Of a stretch of 32,971 nt of DNA, positions 17,077 through 27,248 are shown in pieces (positions within the stretch are counted from its first letter, which is position 1; every line of letters starts with the position of its first letter). The notes under the pieces were generated by a model, which was given only the letters and a program-made list of their open reading frames with translations, was not told the DNA's origin and did no database searches. The stretch is from positions 1 to 32,971 of the forward strand of contig CADAHF010000007.1 of NCBI GenBank assembly GCA_902787665.1. Reading direction: 5' to 3'. The DNA comes from an uncultured Pseudomonadota bacterium. GTDB lineage: Bacteria; Pseudomonadota; Alphaproteobacteria; Rs-D84. The translations under genes and the position numbers were made by a program.

Positions 17077-17289
17077 ATGAAAAAAATATCTGTGTCTTTA
17101 TCGGGTCACCAAACCAGTATTTCACTGGAAGAAGAATTTGTTGTGGCACTAAATAAAATTGCAAAATCAGAAAATCGTTCGGTTGCATCAATTATCCAAG
17201 AAATTGATTCCGTGCGTTCACCTGAATCTAATCTTTCGTCCGCCGTCCGCGTGTGGATATTACGCCAATACATGCAATCAGCAAAATAA
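17077..17289 (+). CDS. RHH_4-type ribbon-helix-helix protein, cassette gene 4
   Basis: The 70 residues match the alphaproteobacterial RHH_4 family: a start with KISVSLSGHQTSISLEEEF, then VALNKIAKSENRSVASIIQEID, and an ending NLSSAVRVWILRQY. The ribbon would contact DNA, and the two helices dimerise. It is translationally linked to gene 3 (one base apart, AGGA upstream). Its last 62 bases overlap the 3' end of the convergent ybeY-lnt gene. A likely role is DNA binding and perhaps autoregulation of the cassette at the palindrome near 15,210; that is inference. Confidence 0.85.
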   Translation: MKKISVSLSGHQTSISLEEEFVVALNKIAKSENRSVASIIQEIDSVRSPESNLSSAVRVWILRQYMQSAK

Positions 17290-19264
17290 TAATCATCATT
17301 CCATCACGACCAATGGCGCGATATGGTGTTTTATGTGCGCCCCAAACGGTTCCGTCAATTACACCACTCTGCCCGATTGGCAACGAAGATAAAATTTCAC
17401 CATTTGACAAAACAAACGCACTTATTCCGGAATAGTTAGCACGCACAACAGGCAATCCAGATTCAATCGCATAACGCCGCACCATATCCAAATGCTGATA
17501 TGTTCCAGGTGTGTTTCCAAACCAAGTGTCATTTGTAATGTTTATTATTGCGTTTGGTGTTAACGATGATGCCGGGACAAGAGAATCAGTAAAAATAATC
17601 TCGTAACACACCGCTGGTGCAAAAACAAAATCTGTTTCAGCCGCGTTTATTGAAATCAATTCCGCCCCATCACCATGTGATAAGTGTGCAGGCGATGGCA
17701 TAAAACCAAACAGACTGTATTCACCAAATGGAACAAGGTGTGATTTGTTATATATATTTGTAATATTGCCATCTGCACCAGATACAATCATTGAATTATA
17801 AACTTTTCCACCTGACACATAATTTGCCCCGATAACAACATTTGTTTTTAATGCTTTTGCCAATGGCATATCATCAGAATCAGTTATCGCATATGGATAT
17901 GTTGTTTCTGGAAAAACAATTAAATCCACTTTGTCACCTTTTGCACCGAAGGCAAATAAATTCATCAAATTTTCTTCGGCTTGTTTTAATGCATCTGCAC
18001 GCGTGTATGCAATTTTTTGCGATTGGTTTTGCGCCGGTTGAACAATACGAATTGTTGCCGACTTTGATACATCGTTTGATGCAACATTAATATTGTGTAT
18101 ACCGTAAAAACCACCACATACAGCCGTTATTACAAACAATAAAAACACAATCATATTAGATGTTTTTTTATGATTGCTTAATAATTCAACACAGCTAGCA
18201 ATTATGCCAATGATAATAAATGTTAATCCCAACGCCCCCCATAACGACATTGAATTTGCAATTACTGGAAATGGCAAAGCAATATTTGCAATCGGGTTCC
18301 ATGGAAAACCAGTACAAAACCATTCGCGCAACCATAAAATCAAAGTCCATACACCAGAAAACATAAATACACGTGATACAGAATTCATTGCATTCTTAGC
18401 AACTGCAACAAATGGCCAAGTAAAGAATAATGCCCCAAATATACCAATTCCAATTAATGCCGGCACGGTCCATATCGCAAACTGCTTTGTTAATTCTGGC
18501 ACAACATATATTGAATTTAATGTCCACCATAGCATTGATATTGCATACATGATACCAAATGGCGAAATACGCAAAAACTCATGCCACAAACCACTATAAT
18601 TTTTCCGCCGCACAGTTAACCAATATGCACCAGCAACACCAAGAACAGTTGCCCACCACATATAAAAAGGTGCAAATCCAAATGCAGCAACACCACCAAA
18701 CAGTGCATATAGCGCATATTGCCAAAATCCATTTTCACGCACTTTTAATTTTTTTAAAAACGATATTGTTTTGTCCCCTGGGCAACTACAACACGAACAG
18801 TTTTTACAATTGCATTTATTACCACAACCACATTGACACTCATCAGCATAAGGATTTTTATATCCTAATTTTTTCATTATAGTGACTTCTTTCGATTCCA
18901 TTATTTTTGCTTCATCATCGGTTATGTGGTCATACCCTTGCAGATGCAACATACCGTGCACAACCATGTGTGCGGTGTGTTCAGCAATACTTATATTTTC
19001 CGCCGCTGCTTCGCGTTTAACCGTATCAAGAGATATATAAATATCGCCCAGCAACAAATCATCACCCAATTCAAACGATAAAACATTCGTTGGTTTATCA
19101 ATACCGCGATATTTTTTATTCAGTTTATGTATTTCTTTATCATTTGTTAATGTGATAGATACTTCAGCATCTTTACTTTTTGGACCCGCCGCATTTGCGA
19201 TTTTATTAAAATCGATATAGTATTTTTTCCACCGTTTATCATTAAAATTTACATAAACTTGCAT
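17228..19264 (-). CDS. YbeY-Lnt fusion: rRNA-maturation endonuclease + apolipoprotein N-acyltransferase
   Basis: One open frame of 678 residues carries two proteins that are usually separate. Residues 1-138 are YbeY, the zinc endoribonuclease of 16S rRNA maturation and ribosome quality control, with the H-x-x-x-H-x-x-x-x-x-H site in VVHGMLHLQGYDH (103-113). Residues 141-164 form a linker with nine Cys in 19 positions (143-161). Residues about 175-678 are Lnt: membrane segments in the first 390 residues, then a nitrilase-like domain with Glu453, Lys507 and Cys553 (the catalytic triad), and a final helix (655-670). Lnt N-acylates lipoproteins in the inner membrane. The ATG has GGGGG 9 bases upstream. 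Separate internal initiation of Lnt is possible. Confidence 0.9.
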   Translation of the reverse strand: MQVYVNFNDKRWKKYYIDFNKIANAAGPKSKDAEVSITLTNDKEIHKLNKKYRGIDKPTNVLSFELGDDLLLGDIYISLDTVKREAAAENISIAEHTAHMVVHGMLHLQGYDHITDDEAKIMESKEVTIMKKLGYKNPYADECQCGCGNKCNCKNCSCCSCPGDKTISFLKKLKVRENGFWQYALYALFGGVAAFGFAPFYMWWATVLGVAGAYWLTVRRKNYSGLWHEFLRISPFGIMYAISMLWWTLNSIYVVPELTKQFAIWTVPALIGIGIFGALFFTWPFVAVAKNAMNSVSRVFMFSGVWTLILWLREWFCTGFPWNPIANIALPFPVIANSMSLWGALGLTFIIIGIIASCVELLSNHKKTSNMIVFLLFVITAVCGGFYGIHNINVASNDVSKSATIRIVQPAQNQSQKIAYTRADALKQAEENLMNLFAFGAKGDKVDLIVFPETTYPYAITDSDDMPLAKALKTNVVIGANYVSGGKVYNSMIVSGADGNITNIYNKSHLVPFGEYSLFGFMPSPAHLSHGDGAELISINAAETDFVFAPAVCYEIIFTDSLVPASSLTPNAIINITNDTWFGNTPGTYQHLDMVRRYAIESGLPVVRANYSGISAFVLSNGEILSSLPIGQSGVIDGTVWGAHKTPYRAIGRDGMMIIILLIACIGVISTRGRRTKD

Positions 19265-19287: not shown

Positions 19288-21129
19288 CTATGCGCGGCTT
19301 TCACTGTTTTTATCCAAATTAAACTGTGCGTTTATCATTTTTTCTTGAAGCTGTTTGGTTGCATTATTAAATGCAACAATTTTACTTTTTGACCCCGCTT
19401 CTTTTATCTTGTTATCAATTCTACTGTTCAAAGATTTATATTGTGTATTTGCGACAGTTTCCCCTTTGGCTGCATATTCTTTGGCTTTGTTATAATACGC
19501 AATCTTTTTTGATTTTCTTGTTTCTGTATCCCCAAGTTTTTCATAACATAGCGCGCCATTAAAATATGTATACCCCTTTACTTCTTTTGGCGCCGAATTA
19601 AAATTAGAACTGGCAATAAAATTATCTATTACTTTAAGTCCCTTGTTATATTCGCCTAATTGATAATACGATATTGCCATATTGCTGTAAACAATATATA
19701 GATTTGGATTTTCCCTGATTGCCAATTCGAATTTTTTGATTGCGCCCTTATAGTCACCATCATCGTAAAGTTTTTCACCAAGTTCATTTAATTTTTCTGC
19801 TGACGATTCTTGTTTGATTGAAGGTGTTTTATTATCAAAAACAAAGTCATTATCAAAAAGACCGCCTTTTTCAATTACAGCAACGGCAGACGGACTAAGA
19901 TATTCCCGCAATCTTTTTTGTTCATATGTTCGTCCGTTTTTTTGAATATTTGCTGTCCGCACATTTTTAAGGTCTTCCGCAACATCATCGTATGCAAGCA
20001 ATGATCCATCTTTCCAAAGTTTTTTGGAGTTCATTTGATATACAGAATTCGCATACGAATCAAGAATATCCCTGTCGGATATATTTCCCAAAACACGATG
20101 CGCCGCAACACCATATTTTGGGCGTAACCCGGCATTCCCCGCCTTGCACAAGTCATCGAACTTGTTCACAATATCGTTCAAACTTTCATCATCATTCACA
20201 GATTGTCTTATGTCTTGACCATCTTGTTTATCTTTGTAAATTCCCTGGCCACGATTATACATTCCAATTCCCAATTCAATAAACAGGTGCGCGTCCATTG
20301 GGGTTGAAAAATTATCTTTCATAGATGGCCACACATATGTTTCATAGAAAGCACGAACCAAACGTTCATTTTCCTCATAAGATACCGAAACACCATTTGT
20401 ATATGGTTTTCCCAAAACTTTTTCAAAAAAGTTTTTTCTTTCTTTGATAATGGCCCTGTCCTTGTTGCCGGTTGGTTTTGTCTTACCAATCATATAACCA
20501 GACCCAATTGTCATATAACCGCCCGTATCACCAACATCTGCATATGCTTCATTAACAAAACCCTCACTTAGCACCGTTTCCATATAAATGTATTCCCATA
20601 TATTATCTATCTGGGCCAACCATTGATCTTTGGGTAAATTCGGGTCTATCTTGATAGTATTTATATTGTGTGTTTTTAATTTTTTTGCGTATTTTACATT
20701 TTCAATTTTGTCTTTAACATTATCGGTGATTTTATCTTTGTTCTTTATGCCAGCTGCCCCGCCTAACATCATAACCAACATTAAATACCATATCGCGTAT
20801 GCAGCGGCATCAGGATGCTTTTTATTTTTTTCTGCGTTTCTTTTTTTCATATAACGCAAGACCCAGTTGTTAACAAAAGTAACATCAAAAGCATTAACAA
20901 AACATTCCGCTAACCATAAACTAAGCGCGCCACTTAAATTGAAAGCTTCCGCAACAGTCTGCGCACCCGCCCCAAAAACTTTATCCGCAACAGCACCAGG
21001 TCTGTTATTGCCACCGGCATCTTTCTCAATGGGCTTTTTTATTATCTTTTTCAATTTTGCAAAGTTTTTACCGGCATTAAATGCCAATTTTTTAATTCCA
21101 GCTTCCAATATGTTTTCTTTGCGCGCCAT
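19288..21129 (-). CDS. Membrane-anchored GH24-lysozyme-like protein with C-terminal TPRs
   Basis: The 613 residues have a basic N-terminus, one membrane helix (108-127), a GH24 (phage-T4-type) lysozyme-like domain (about 180-360) and TPR repeats (about 443-560). The lysozyme catalytic pattern E-8-D-8-T is visible as Glu189 (LSEGFVNEAYAD), Asp198 and Thr207 (YMTIGSGYM). If active it would cut the glycan backbone of peptidoglycan, with the TPRs recruiting partners. The linkage to TPR and a host membrane anchor argues against a phage endolysin. AAAGG overlaps the mucR stop 12 bases upstream. The next gene is ybeY-lnt, 23 bases on. Confidence 0.7.
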   Translation of the reverse strand: MARKENILEAGIKKLAFNAGKNFAKLKKIIKKPIEKDAGGNNRPGAVADKVFGAGAQTVAEAFNLSGALSLWLAECFVNAFDVTFVNNWVLRYMKKRNAEKNKKHPDAAAYAIWYLMLVMMLGGAAGIKNKDKITDNVKDKIENVKYAKKLKTHNINTIKIDPNLPKDQWLAQIDNIWEYIYMETVLSEGFVNEAYADVGDTGGYMTIGSGYMIGKTKPTGNKDRAIIKERKNFFEKVLGKPYTNGVSVSYEENERLVRAFYETYVWPSMKDNFSTPMDAHLFIELGIGMYNRGQGIYKDKQDGQDIRQSVNDDESLNDIVNKFDDLCKAGNAGLRPKYGVAAHRVLGNISDRDILDSYANSVYQMNSKKLWKDGSLLAYDDVAEDLKNVRTANIQKNGRTYEQKRLREYLSPSAVAVIEKGGLFDNDFVFDNKTPSIKQESSAEKLNELGEKLYDDGDYKGAIKKFELAIRENPNLYIVYSNMAISYYQLGEYNKGLKVIDNFIASSNFNSAPKEVKGYTYFNGALCYEKLGDTETRKSKKIAYYNKAKEYAAKGETVANTQYKSLNSRIDNKIKEAGSKSKIVAFNNATKQLQEKMINAQFNLDKNSESRA

Positions 21130-21141
21130 AATTGGTGACCT

Positions 21142-21507
21142 TTACTTCTTTTTTCCGAATCCTGTCTTCTTTGCAATCTTAGAACGCTTTGCCGCATAGT
21201 TCGGTGCAACAAAAGGATAGTCGTGTGGCAACCCCCACTTTTCCCGATATTGTTCTGGGGTTAAATTGTATTTGCGCTTTATATACCGACGCAACATCGT
21301 GTGCCATGTGCCATCCTCAAGACATTGAATTTTATCTGGACGCACAGATTTTGCGATTTCCGCATCACTTGCCGCCCGTCCCAACAATGTTGTTCGTGCT
21401 TGGGCAACCGCCGCGGCCATGGTAAGTTTTGGATTTGCAGCCATCGCCGCCGCCGCCAGATTTGCGACAGCCAATGCAACCTCTGCTTCTTTTGTATTAT
21501 TTACCAA
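21142..21507 (-). CDS. MucR/Ros-family transcriptional regulator lacking zinc histidines
   Basis: The 121 residues match the MucR/Ros family of alphaproteobacterial regulators: an N-terminal Ala-rich oligomerisation region, then RPDKIQCLEDGTWHTMLRR, LTPEQYREKWGLPHDYP and FVAPNYAAKRSKIAKKTG. In classical members the zinc site uses Cys and two His in a Cys-Leu-Glu-Asp...Arg-His...His motif. Here the Cys62 and Asp65 are kept but both His are replaced, by Tyr75 and Lys79 (RRYIKRKY). MucR-type proteins without zinc are known. TTG start (21507) with AGAGG 7 bases upstream. It heads an operon with the lysozyme-TPR gene. Confidence 0.85.
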   Translation of the reverse strand: MVNNTKEAEVALAVANLAAAAMAANPKLTMAAAVAQARTTLLGRAASDAEIAKSVRPDKIQCLEDGTWHTMLRRYIKRKYNLTPEQYREKWGLPHDYPFVAPNYAAKRSKIAKKTGFGKKK

Positions 21508-21582
21508 TTGCCAACCTCTTTTTTATTTACTACAATTATTATACCACAAATAAAATACAAGTAAAATTAAAGTCAAACAAAA

Positions 21583-22860
21583 ATGATTAACGACAACAGA
21601 CCTTTAGCAGACCAAATGCGTCCAAACACTATTGACGACATTTTGGGTCAAACCGCATTACTTGGTGAAAACGGTCTTGTTCGCCGTATGGTTGAAAATC
21701 AAAAACTGTCCAATCTTATATTATGGGGCCCCCCAGGATGCGGCAAAACAACAATTGCGCGCGCATTGGCAAATTCCGTTGATATGGATTTTGTTCCGAT
21801 GTCGGCGGTATTTTCTGGCACGGCCGACATCAAGAAGGCGGTTGAGGCGGCAAAATTACGTCAACAAATTGGTCGCGGAACATTATTGTTTATCGATGAA
21901 ATTCACCGTTTTAACAAAACACAACAGGATACACTTCTTCCCTATTTGGAAGATGGCACGGTCGTGTTTATCGGCGCGACAACGGAAAACCCATCGTTTA
22001 ATTTGAATAATGCGTTGCTTTCGCGTTGCCATGTCGGTGTGTTGGAACCGTTGGGCACAGACGATTTAATTGAATTGATAAAACGCACCGAAAAATTCAC
22101 TGGAAAAAAATTACCATTGGATAAAGACGCGCGCATACACCTTGCACAAATGTCGGATGGCGATGCGCGATTTTTATTAAATACAGTCGAATATTTATTA
22201 AATGCAAAATTCAAAAAGAATTTATCACCCAATGAATTAGATAATGCGGTTCAAAAACGCGCACCACTATCAGACCGCGCAGGTGACGAACATTACAATT
22301 TGATTTCCGCTGTTCACAAATCATTACGTGCATCGGACACCGATGCGGCACTGTATTGGGTTGCCCGCATGATGACATCGGGTCAAGACCCCATGTATAT
22401 ATTCCGTCGTTTAACAAGATTCGCGATGGAAGATGTTGGTCTTGCCGATCCGAATGCAATTCAAATGGCAATTGCTGCATGGAACGCATACGAACGCATG
22501 GGTTCGCCTGAGGGCGACATTGCATTGGCAGAATTGGTCGTATATCTTGGCACCGCACCAAAAAGCAATCGTTTAGATGTCGCGATTCATTCGGCTTATG
22601 CAGCTGCCGAAGAATTCGGATCACTGCCCCCGCCAAAGAATATCTTAAATGCCCCAACCCGCATGATGAAAAATATGGGTTATGGTGCCGGATATATTTA
22701 CGAACCTGATACAGAAATTGGTTTTTCGGGACAAAATTGTTTTCCAGAAAAAATGGGCCGACGGACATTCTATACACCGGTTGAACGCGGATTCGAACGC
22801 GAAATAAAAAAGAGATTAGATTATTGGAACGGTCTGCGTGAAAAGCTAGGGAAAAAATAA
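21583..22860 (+). CDS. rarA: Replication-associated recombination protein RarA (MgsA)
   Basis: RarA is a clamp-loader-like AAA+ ATPase acting at stalled forks. At 425 residues it has normal length. Walker A is GPPGCGKTT (residues about 49-57), Walker B is LLFIDEIHRF with GATTENPSF as sensor 1; the N-terminal RPLADQMRPNTIDDILGQ and the C-terminal tetramerisation region (FYTPVERGFEREIKKRLDYW) are also present. It has no visible Shine-Dalgarno sequence. It is divergent from mucR by about 75 bp, and its stop is 4 bases from the convergent stop of the outer-membrane protein at 22865, with no terminator between. Confidence 0.95.
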   Translation: MINDNRPLADQMRPNTIDDILGQTALLGENGLVRRMVENQKLSNLILWGPPGCGKTTIARALANSVDMDFVPMSAVFSGTADIKKAVEAAKLRQQIGRGTLLFIDEIHRFNKTQQDTLLPYLEDGTVVFIGATTENPSFNLNNALLSRCHVGVLEPLGTDDLIELIKRTEKFTGKKLPLDKDARIHLAQMSDGDARFLLNTVEYLLNAKFKKNLSPNELDNAVQKRAPLSDRAGDEHYNLISAVHKSLRASDTDAALYWVARMMTSGQDPMYIFRRLTRFAMEDVGLADPNAIQMAIAAWNAYERMGSPEGDIALAELVVYLGTAPKSNRLDVAIHSAYAAAEEFGSLPPPKNILNAPTRMMKNMGYGAGYIYEPDTEIGFSGQNCFPEKMGRRTFYTPVERGFEREIKKRLDYWNGLREKLGKK

Positions 22861-23684: not shown

Positions 23685-24911
23685 TTAGAATTGGAACACT
23701 GCCCGCATACCAATCGACATTTCTTGATTGTCTTTCAAGTTTACCTTGCCAACTTTGGTAAGGCCTGTATCAACATCTGCTAAACTTGGTTGATACCAAT
23801 AAAAGTCCAAATCTTTATCATTGGCGCTATCATACAATGATGCACGTGCATACAACCCCAAAGCCATCCAGTCATTTGGTTGCCACCCAATCTCTGCTTT
23901 GACAGATAACTGATCGTGCCAATCATAATGCCCATAGATACCCTCGATATTCAATGTCCAATCTTCATCCAATACACTGAACACACCAGCGCCACCTTCG
24001 ACATAGAAGGCGCTGTCATCCAAAGCATACGCAACAAACATTGCACGTGTTGGGTCTTTTGCTTCGATACCATTGCCGTATGCGTCACCATCAATATCAA
24101 CATATTGACCACGCAACAAACCGTATATTGTTGAACGAGAAACTTTGTATCCCGCTTTTAATTCAATCAGATAATTATTCGCAACATCTTTTTGGTGTTG
24201 GAAATATGCAGACAATTCACCAATCCAATCAGCGGTGTCAATGGCACGCCATTGCGCCCCGATACCAAAGATGTTCAAACCATTATCGTCATCTTTATCA
24301 TCATCAAAGTTTTTCCAATCAAATTTGTTTTCATTAATTTCATAGCGCAACATACCAACCAAAGCAATTTCGTTTGTGATACCATAACTAAAATCTTCTT
24401 TGATTGCGAATTGTGTTGATTTCCATGTGCCCTTTTCGCCTTCTAATGCACCAAAAGTACCACTAGCAATTGTTGTATCCATATCTTTCAATGTAAAATC
24501 ATAACTGTTTGTGGTATATGCCAAATCAGTTACCGAACCAAATTTACCTTTTAATGGTTGATAGAACGGATGTGCAAGGTAATATTTCCGCTTTACCTCA
24601 CTGCGCACCGTTTCCGCACGTGAAGAACGCACATTTTGCGTTGAACCACTTGAAGCATACTGTTTATACAATGCGCTGCGGTTTGATGGTTGTGTATAAT
24701 AAATATTCTTGCCATCTTGCTTTGTATATGTCGCCGTATTAGAACGGGTCTGATATTTAGCATAATCAACGTTCTGACGCGTCCGTGTTGCAGGATTGCT
24801 TGACAAAGTCGCACTGGACCCAGCACGTGTGCCCATATTTGTTGCAGCAACCGCCGGCATAACACCTGCAATTGCAACCGCCCCAACCAATAAAGCTAAT
24901 TGTTTTTTCAT
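23685..24911 (-). CDS. Outer-membrane beta-barrel protein with long N-terminal periplasmic/extracellular region
   Basis: This is a 408-residue protein with a signal peptide (MKKQLALLVGAVAIAGVMPAVAA), a Ser/Thr/Arg/Tyr-rich low-complexity stretch (about 25-115) and a barrel of about 250 residues ending in a C-terminal Phe (SIGMRAVFQF). Alternating strands with Tyr/Trp are evident. I start at ATG 24911 with AAAGGAG 9 bases upstream; the upstream in-frame extension is hydrophobic noise. A TTGTTT-16-TATAAT promoter precedes it, so it is likely well expressed. Function unknown; porin-like by composition only. Confidence 0.75.
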   Translation of the reverse strand: MKKQLALLVGAVAIAGVMPAVAATNMGTRAGSSATLSSNPATRTRQNVDYAKYQTRSNTATYTKQDGKNIYYTQPSNRSALYKQYASSGSTQNVRSSRAETVRSEVKRKYYLAHPFYQPLKGKFGSVTDLAYTTNSYDFTLKDMDTTIASGTFGALEGEKGTWKSTQFAIKEDFSYGITNEIALVGMLRYEINENKFDWKNFDDDKDDDNGLNIFGIGAQWRAIDTADWIGELSAYFQHQKDVANNYLIELKAGYKVSRSTIYGLLRGQYVDIDGDAYGNGIEAKDPTRAMFVAYALDDSAFYVEGGAGVFSVLDEDWTLNIEGIYGHYDWHDQLSVKAEIGWQPNDWMALGLYARASLYDSANDKDLDFYWYQPSLADVDTGLTKVGKVNLKDNQEMSIGMRAVFQF

Positions 24912-24936
24912 GATATATTTTCTCCTTTTGATAAAA

Positions 24937-24964
24937 ATTATATCACAAAAAGGCTTAAAAACAA
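24937..24964 (-). promoter_or_regulatory. Promoter of the outer-membrane protein gene
   Basis: Minus strand TTGTTT (24964-24959), 16 bp, TATAAT (24942-24937). Followed by AAAGGAG and the ATG at 24911. Confidence 0.55.
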
Positions 24965-24999
24965 AATATAAAGACAAAAAGAGTAAATAGGTAAAAATA

Positions 25000-25015
25000 C
25001 CGCCCAACTGGGCGG
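25000..25015 (-). terminator. Intrinsic terminator of ftsK
   Basis: On the minus strand CCGCCC-AGTT-GGGCGG is followed by TATTTTT (25000-25015 plus T tract to 24993). It begins directly after the ftsK stop (25020) and insulates the outer-membrane protein promoter. Confidence 0.9.
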
Positions 25016-25019
25016 CATA

Positions 25020-27248
25020 TTACAAAATGTGTCTTTTGTTATTTGCGTCGGGGGCGCTGACTATGCCTTCGGCTTCCATCCGTTCAACAAGTGTTGCCGC
25101 CTTGTTATACCCGATTTGTAATCTCCGTTGCAGATATGAAATTGTTGGTTTTTTATCACGACGAACAATCTCGACTGCTTGGGCATATAAATCATCGCCC
25201 TTGCCCCCAGAAGCGCCAGCAGAAGTTCCACCGAATGCACCACCATCTTCTTCGCTTTCAATAACACCTGACACATATTCTGGTTCTGCCTGGGATCGCA
25301 AGAAATTACCAATCTTCTTCAACTCATCATCAGAGATAAATGCGCCATGTATACGCACTGGCACACGTCCAGCATCGCTGAACAACATATCACCCATCGC
25401 CAACAACTGTTCTGCACCCTTTTCGCCCAAAGTCGTCATAGAATCAATCGTGCTGCGCGCCTGGAATGATACGCGTGTCGGGAAATTAGATTTAATTGTT
25501 CCAGTAATAACAGTGGTATCTGGACGCTGTGTCGCCATAACAAGGTGAATACCGGCTGCACGCGCTTTCTGCGCAATGCGTTGAACACATGCCTCAACAT
25601 CCTTGCGCGCAAGCGACATCAAATCTGCAACCTCATCAATAATAATAACGATGTATGGCATATCAGACATATCAACTTCTTGGGTTTCAAACAACAATTC
25701 GCCAGTTTCTTCATCTGTTCCAACGGCAACTTGCTTTGTTATTGTTTCGCCCCTATCCCGCTTTTCAGCCATAATTTCGTTATACGTTTCAATATTACGC
25801 GCATTTACCAACTGTAATTGCTGATATCGATCATCCATTTCACGCACAGCCCATTTAAGCGCATTAACCGATGCCTCTGGATTATTCTTAACAATTGGTG
25901 TAATAAGATGTGGAATATCGTCCCAGAAACCAAAGTCAGACCCCTTAGGATCAATAATAATCAATTTACATTTATCTGGGGTAAAGTGATAAACGATTGA
26001 TGTAATAATTGATTGCACGAACACCGATTTACCCGATCCTGTTCGCCCAGCAATCAACATATGTGGCATTTTCGCCAAATCAAAATACATTGGGTTTCCA
26101 CCAATATCAACCCCCAGCGCAAGCGGTATCTTGAATTTTGATTCAACAAAACGTTCATCTGCGACAAGTTCTTGGAACCGCACCGTTTCACGTTTAAGAT
26201 TCGCCATTTCAACACCAATCAGCTGGGTTGATGGAATATGTGCAATACGAATATTTTCAGCCGCCATAACACGCGTCATATCGTCAACTGTCTTTTTAAC
26301 ATCCGCCATACGCGTCCCTTCTTCGGGCAAAAATTCATATAATGTTACAATTGGGCCCGGACGAATACCAGTAACACTGCCGTTTATGCGATATGTCGAA
26401 AAATAACCTTCCATATTAACGGCATTCTTTTTCATTTCAGCCGTGACAACATTTTTACCGAAATCAGACCGTTTCAAGAAAGCAGGATCTGGTAATTGAT
26501 ATTCGACCTCTTCTTCATCTTCCTCAACTTTTTTCTTTCTGCGCTTGCGTTTTGGCTTTTCTTCTTCGTCTTCACCCTCTTCATCTTCTTCTGTTTCTTC
26601 TTCCCCTTCTTCATCTTCTTCGTCGTCTTCATATTCTTCTTCCTCTGCTGGCGGAACAAGATGGAACAGCGCAAGAACCCAACGCACAGCATACCATATC
26701 CGATACATCAACGATTGAACATGTGACCATTTAATATGTAACAACATTCCGGCCATTACAAAAAATACACCAATACAAACCAATCCAAAAATAACACCCC
26801 AACTGCCAATAACAGATTGCACATCGCTTGACGCAATTGCGCCGACCAGTCCGCCAAATGTAGCAGATGGCGCAGTAATACCAAAACCCGCCGCCCCAGC
26901 ACATACGGCAACAAAACCACGCAATATATTATATTCTGGCGCATATTCGGCATCCCAATTCATTGCCATTGATATTCCCCAACGCATCAGACACAAAATC
27001 AAAAACAGCGCTGGAATAAAACCAATAGAATATTTAATAAAGCCGACGATATTCCCCATAAAAGATTGCGCACCAAATGTACTTGCACATGAAAAACCAT
27101 CCAGATAAGAATTACTAAATATAAGCGAAAGCATTGCCCAAAGGCCAATCAACAATATCGCCGCACCACACACGCGCATAAACAGCGATTTTAACGCACC
27201 AGAAACACTGTCTGGTAAAAATTTAGATTCTGATTTCATGACATGCAT
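25020..27248 (-). CDS. ftsK: DNA translocase FtsK
   Basis: FtsK couples septation to chromosome segregation by pumping DNA toward dif. The 742 residues comprise four membrane helices (about 22-45, 68-88, 110-135, 150-170), a very acidic linker (about 202-250, long Glu/Asp runs around one Lys/Arg patch) and the RecA-like motor with Walker A GRTGSGKS (401-408) and Walker B YIVIIIDEVADL (532-543), with the FtsK signature IDPKGSDFGFWDDIPHL. The C-terminal gamma winged-helix domain (about 680-742) recognises polar DNA sequences. ATG 27248 or ATG 27239 are both possible; no strong ribosome-binding site is seen. Confidence 0.95.
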   Translation of the reverse strand: MHVMKSESKFLPDSVSGALKSLFMRVCGAAILLIGLWAMLSLIFSNSYLDGFSCASTFGAQSFMGNIVGFIKYSIGFIPALFLILCLMRWGISMAMNWDAEYAPEYNILRGFVAVCAGAAGFGITAPSATFGGLVGAIASSDVQSVIGSWGVIFGLVCIGVFFVMAGMLLHIKWSHVQSLMYRIWYAVRWVLALFHLVPPAEEEEYEDDEEDEEGEEETEEDEEGEDEEEKPKRKRRKKKVEEDEEEVEYQLPDPAFLKRSDFGKNVVTAEMKKNAVNMEGYFSTYRINGSVTGIRPGPIVTLYEFLPEEGTRMADVKKTVDDMTRVMAAENIRIAHIPSTQLIGVEMANLKRETVRFQELVADERFVESKFKIPLALGVDIGGNPMYFDLAKMPHMLIAGRTGSGKSVFVQSIITSIVYHFTPDKCKLIIIDPKGSDFGFWDDIPHLITPIVKNNPEASVNALKWAVREMDDRYQQLQLVNARNIETYNEIMAEKRDRGETITKQVAVGTDEETGELLFETQEVDMSDMPYIVIIIDEVADLMSLARKDVEACVQRIAQKARAAGIHLVMATQRPDTTVITGTIKSNFPTRVSFQARSTIDSMTTLGEKGAEQLLAMGDMLFSDAGRVPVRIHGAFISDDELKKIGNFLRSQAEPEYVSGVIESEEDGGAFGGTSAGASGGKGDDLYAQAVEIVRRDKKPTISYLQRRLQIGYNKAATLVERMEAEGIVSAPDANNKRHIL

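Follow-up and report, generated by a model that had tools for sequence, protein, structure and literature searches.

What does a membrane-anchored, lysozyme-like protein do in a gut bacterium, and why does its outer half differ so strongly between closely related species? Cell-wall hydrolases are usually regarded as conserved housekeeping parts. The gene considered here, which we call gene X, lies at 19288..21129 on the reverse strand of the window (i.e., the whole stretch of 32,971 nt that was analyzed) and encodes, from an ATG start and in an intact frame, a protein of 613 aa arranged as a membrane anchor, a GH24-like domain and TPRs. An earlier note on this DNA had assigned Glu189, Asp198 and Thr207 to this ORF, and all three residues were confirmed at these positions. 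The organism appears to be an alphaproteobacterium with a reduced genome that belongs to the Candidatus Enterousia group, the genus name resting on the match to relatives that carry the same locus; the assembly comprises 0.79 Mb in 29 contigs and is 92% complete. Enterousia, in the order Rs-D84, comprises reduced-genome gut bacteria that are likely symbionts or parasites (PMC12306168).

The genes mucR and lnt, previously named as neighbors of X, were both found, with lnt additionally fused to ybeY. The mucR gene (21142..21507, reverse strand; PF05443, 8.9e-29) is located 12 bp upstream of X, and the two genes are probably part of one operon. The fused ybeY-lnt (17228..19264, reverse strand; PF02130, LNT_N and CN_hydrolase; TIGR00043 and TIGR00546) begins 23 bp downstream of X. 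YbeY and Lnt are encoded in the window by this one ORF of 678 aa and, in about 17 further species of this genus, by separate neighboring ORFs; the fusion was therefore made or broken within the genus. The divergent rarA/mgsA gene (21583..22860, forward strand; PF12002, 7.9e-60) represents the left boundary of the conserved locus, and its adjacency to mucR/X is kept in relatives. Upstream of mucR, a TG-extended promoter-like site (21538..21565, reverse strand) was identified as a consensus match only, with total matches not above those in shuffles. The FtsK gene (25020-27248) is found 4 kb from X, and the 440-aa ORF that adjoins it (23685-25007, reverse strand) has no meaningful Pfam match.

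Analysis of 66 genomes of the genus with mucR and ybeY/lnt on one contig showed an intervening gene in 57, and 54 loci in which X adjoins ybeY/lnt were subsequently inspected. X is a single-copy gene in the window's genome, where the only other match is weak and confined to the TPRs. This conserved place, the operon-like setting with mucR and ybeY-lnt and the single copy support the view that X is host-encoded. Its architecture is, as had been proposed, unlike that of phage endolysins, given its length and its setting among rarA, mucR, ybeY-lnt and ftsK. Neither a lysis nor a structural phage cluster was found around X, and there was no match to phage records. A prophage origin of the window copy was rejected, since neither phage records nor viral contigs matched its catalytic type (type B, see below). 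Its position behind mucR is the only feature that lends plausibility to the idea that X could be a regulated enzyme.

Two hydrophobic segments were found by hydropathy near the N-terminus. The first (residues ~62-86; 20872..20946, reverse strand) is probably interfacial; it is weaker than the second in almost all relatives and is directly followed by a K-rich loop. The second, a helix at residues 108-126 (AAAYAIWYLMLVMMLGGAA; 20752..20808, reverse strand), is the best membrane segment (KD 1.7) and bears out the membrane anchor that the earlier note had described. The N-terminal part and the loop before this helix have a net positive charge, which would favor an N-in/C-out orientation. Moreover, in the orthologue found beside rarA in another genus (G149; L255, 4927-6498), a lipobox (MTSC) replaces the anchor and the type-A GH24 domain and TPRs are kept. 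Both the positive N-terminus and this lipobox point to a probable periplasmic location of the catalytic part. Another lipoprotein-like GH24 protein was found in L120 (G111). Toward the C-terminus, the TPR region (residues ~443-560; 19450..19803, reverse strand), also expected from the earlier note, is supported by Pfam and PDB TPR matches and by a fold match to TPR chains; PF07719 is matched from residues 444-476 onward with 30 bits (cut-off 27). The last 45 residues form a tail with a K..AFN.A motif (19291..19425, reverse strand).

Comparison with relatives revealed at least four highly divergent versions of the part of X beyond the membrane helix; these are designated A, B (carried by the window), C (with C' and D) and E. 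The type-B module of the window covers residues ~155-437 (19819..20667, reverse strand), as judged from profile, PF00959 in relatives and model. Within it, E189, D198 (+9) and T207 (+18) align with E11, D20 and T26 of T4 lysozyme, the pattern and register of GH24 (codons at 20563..20565, 20536..20538 and 20509..20511, reverse strand). For the window's X alone, only the TPRs and no lysozyme family were recognized in Pfam, PHROGs and NCBIfam, so that relatives were needed to secure the motif call. A first scan of genome contigs with this protein also gave no matches; the type-A alignment used as query instead gave 58 loci. A type-B profile built from 10 catalytic domains, including that of the window, matched T4 lysozymes in the PDB (best E 0.0024) with the register EG..YxD..G..TIG.G, and the 60 PDB matches listed were T4-type lysozymes, related spike lysozymes or fusions with them. 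PF00959 was matched by 9 of the 10 type-B members (best 1.3e-6, with E up to 1 allowed), the window copy being undetected. Syntenic type-A orthologues exceeded the curated PF00959 cut-off (40.7 bits in G006; also G077, G097 and G084), and type-A orthologues matched endolysins in the PDB.

Profile comparisons linked canonical prophage GH24 to type A (95%), type A to type B (97%) and type B to types C/D (98%). Direct hhalign comparison of canonical prophage GH24 with types C, D and E was not significant; types C/D are connected to GH24 solely by way of A and B, and the connection of type E (30% for A and B combined versus E) is weak and uncertain. A type-C model, which has good confidence over the domain, matched phage lysozymes in BFVD with a probability of 1.00, the target TM being 0.56-0.67 for small ones. 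The AlphaFold model of the window's X has pLDDT values mostly of 70-90 over residues 160-420; searches with it were dominated by TPR matches, with an endolysin among the weaker ones (viral library), and PDB fold searches with whole-length models returned TPR chains only and were uninformative on the catalytic part. Taken together, relatives and profiles suggest a lysozyme fold and support placing the subtype of the window, on sequence grounds, among GH24 (T4-lysozyme-type) relatives, in agreement with the GH24 assignment made previously.

Glu189 and Thr207 are invariant in 55 of 55 orthologues, and hardly anything else is; the only other invariant residues of the post-membrane part are G211 and G334, and residue 291 is Tyr or Phe in all 55 sequences. 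As nearly all else varies, the catalytic pattern is more than a chance occurrence, and the concern that the catalytic Glu might not be conserved in homologues is resolved in its favor. Asp is retained at position 198 in 27/29 type-A, 11/11 type-B and 2/2 type-E sequences, and types C, C' and D have His, Gln or Tyr there. Such replacements affect 13 of the 55 species, suggesting that one family member in four might not be a muramidase of the classical kind. The twelve aligned C/C'/D sequences share an invariant Glu three positions after the Asp198 site. In L061, L075, L066 and their relatives, the Asp20 position is taken by His or Gln, with the conserved Glu three residues on; judged from their residues, these GH24-like versions possibly have an alternative active site. 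Within types, catalytic-module pairs with unsaturated dS showed dN/dS of about 0.1-0.2, indicative of purifying selection.

The wholesale replacement of the motif region between sister species goes beyond what the window alone could show. On an lnt tree of 55 species, used here with species-level representatives, the type changes 20 times by parsimony (minimum 3; mean of 23.2 with shuffled labels), and the changes forced by well-supported branches alone are 15 for type A, 9 each for types C and B and 2 for type E. Many species pairs with 72-86% identical lnt carry different catalytic types. G013 and G015, for example, have 86% of Lnt and 78% of the anchor in common and carry types A and E, respectively. 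DNA homology between sister species extends from rarA or mucR into X and ends sharply at codon ~104-136, near the membrane helix or shortly beyond it, and returns within the last tens of X codons or at ybeY; in one pair with a common TPR, it returns at codon 480. Nearly identical tails surround different types in G117 (A) and G014 (B). Among the five sister species of the window, only G096 shares its cassette, and with the other four homology ends at the end of mucR and returns at codon 606 or at ybeY.

Mantel tests against Lnt divergence yielded rho values of 0.36 for the anchor and 0.30 for the tail (0/500 permutations each), compared with 0.06 (57/500) for the catalytic part and 0.04 (129/500) for the TPRs over all pairs; within types A and B, the catalytic and TPR parts correlated weakly with Lnt divergence. 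The anchor and tail thus track the species tree, unlike the catalytic and TPR parts. The gene is also present beside rarA in other genera of the family, where g22 and g24 have type A, g26 a D-like version and g21 yet another one; the versions are therefore probably older than the genus. Conversion from silent cassettes within a genome was rejected, as the type B and C profiles found essentially one full copy per genome, and exchange between lineages is thus preferred. A MAG chimerism artefact was judged unlikely, with the same pattern present in 55 genomes, mostly in intact frames and including a one-contig chromosome (G104).

Taking these observations into consideration, we read X as being under recombination-driven diversifying selection. 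The explanation that we favor, with moderate confidence, is that X is a periplasmic, anchored GH24 muramidase with TPR docking, the outer part of which is exchanged under selection driven by an antagonist. The protein would be produced from a mucR-X-ybeY-lnt transcription unit and held in the inner membrane by its N-terminal anchor with the enzyme outside the membrane, where types A and B (the latter in the window) could cut peptidoglycan and the TPR part could dock a partner or restrain the enzyme. Cassettes would be replaced by homologous recombination in the conserved flanks. An antagonist, such as a phage, a bacteriocin or a muramidase inhibitor, may recognize the outer part; rare versions could then be favored as long as muramidase function is kept, and exchange would be maintained because of this recognition. 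Counted against this reading are the window protein being below Pfam detection, the dominance of TPRs in the model search, the loss of the Asp in some species and the lack of the gene in some nearly complete genomes. A further point against it is that no antagonist left a direct trace, with neither a defence-family match of note nor an immunity-like gene between X and ybeY. A more tentative suggestion, to which we give about one chance in three, is that X is an arms-race recognition locus, in which the enzyme and TPR ectodomain is traded as a cassette between a constant anchor and tail among species of gut Rs-D84 bacteria and even across genera; it would represent a trans-species polymorphism with unchanging catalytic Glu and Thr, some versions having an altered, Asp-less active site.

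Other explanations fit parts of this evidence. The earlier note proposed a dedicated muramidase for division or secretion, and such a conserved housekeeping role could account for the conserved operon place with the lipoprotein-maturation gene lnt and for the occurrence of X in the majority of the species of this genus and, beyond it, in further genera of the family. However, no catalytic module was found with three profiles in G016, G072 and G118, which are 94-98% complete, and in G016 and G072 mucR and ybeY-lnt are side by side; a dedicated division role is therefore unlikely, and an enzymatic part that is exchanged between species is a poor fit to a conserved division part. In addition, no recognized division or secretion partner gene directly adjoins X (the FtsK gene being 4 kb off), and no secretion gene other than SecD was recognized in the Pfam-scanned part of the window. 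We thus consider a housekeeping role improbable. In G001, G028 and G112, the X gene is found elsewhere in the genome. Specialized secretion-system muramidases are exemplified by VirB1-type enzymes. PrgK of pCF10 (PMC11323569) is, like X, a membrane-associated wall hydrolase; unlike such enzymes, X has no adjoining secretion-system genes and has a different domain make-up. SpmX of the Caulobacterales, reportedly traced to a phage lysin by Randich et al. in 2019, illustrates a different possibility, i.e., that X is a co-opted, largely non-catalytic lysozyme fold that serves as a binding or localization scaffold, its invariant Glu being kept for stability or binding. SpmX is also alphaproteobacterial, host-encoded and membrane-bound with a lysozyme-type domain; it keeps the catalytic Glu, shows no detectable lysozyme activity and uses this domain for binding (PMC5347347). 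The loss of the Asp in types C/C'/D and the TPRs, which are binding modules, would be consistent with a scaffold. In contrast to the order of TM, GH24 and TPR in X, SpmX has an N-terminal lysozyme domain, a proline-rich acidic middle and two C-terminal TMs without TPRs (PMC5347347), and its lysozyme domain works with cytoplasmic partners, PopZ and DivJ, unlike the proposed periplasmic X. Furthermore, E, D and T are kept in types A and B, and lysozyme-like versions are swapped for other lysozyme-like ones and not for any binding domain, which suggests selection on enzyme function. A scaffold is accordingly rather unlikely, at roughly one chance in five.

Polymorphic or allele-switching loci, such as those of polymorphic toxins and variable receptors, have constant flanks around a functional part that is exchanged by recombination. 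X resembles polymorphic toxins in its constant N-terminal part and exchanged remainder at one locus and could thus represent a muramidase weapon directed at prey or neighboring cells, in which the delivery part is constant and the effector end varies, and the lineage has been described as symbiont- or parasite-like (PMC12306168). By comparison with such toxins, X is single copy, all of its versions keep the active-site Glu and Thr, and its variants are lysozyme-like as far as classifiable, with no known chemistry swap; its N-terminal part is a membrane anchor and not a known delivery module, and the gap separating X from ybeY, which measures 23 bp in the window, has neither an immunity-like gene nor room for one (in relatives, ybeY/lnt comes directly after X). 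An effector role is very improbable. There is also a small chance that X protects against phage, as a tethered lysozyme that responds to perturbation of the envelope by phage, with versions exchanged like other defence genes. Defence genes are commonly dispensable and exchanged horizontally at one fixed site, and some type-A copies share a YDD-TGKPL insert with prophage GH24 of the same genus, but PADLOC gave no defence-family match of note, and an operon with mucR and lnt is no defence island.

For the favored reading, an anchored muramidase under antagonist-driven exchange, the repeated replacement of the outer half with retention of the catalytic residues suggests that some external selector acts within the periplasm of these uncultured gut bacteria, and X could serve as a marked locus for finding it. 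If the driver is a phage, X types should predict phage susceptibility, and the His/Gln versions would test whether the GH24 fold works without its Asp. Neither the TM-GH24-TPR architecture nor cassette exchange in a wall hydrolase was found described in the open papers searched.

Comparison with GH24 lysozymes at large (T4 and P21/lambda-type endolysins; PF00959) showed that X has the E, the YxD, the T with TIG.G, Y-N-.-G and GL..RR/K in the same order and differs from them in its longer catalytic region, membrane anchor, TPRs and chromosomal operon and in having some versions without the Asp. Across the class, only 3 of 240 genomes matched the type-A catalytic profile, and one of these three belongs to this genus. 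In a distant alphaproteobacterial family, a host-type GH24-like protein of 503 aa (L268, 703-2214; G341) was found that has a membrane anchor and no TPRs. Free-standing prophage-type GH24 copies of 160-200 aa were found in other genomes, and in L033 (G099) and L041 (G020) a prophage-type GH24 is fused in frame to a phage minor-head-like protein, as identified by eye, suggesting that these fusions may be virion-associated lysozymes.
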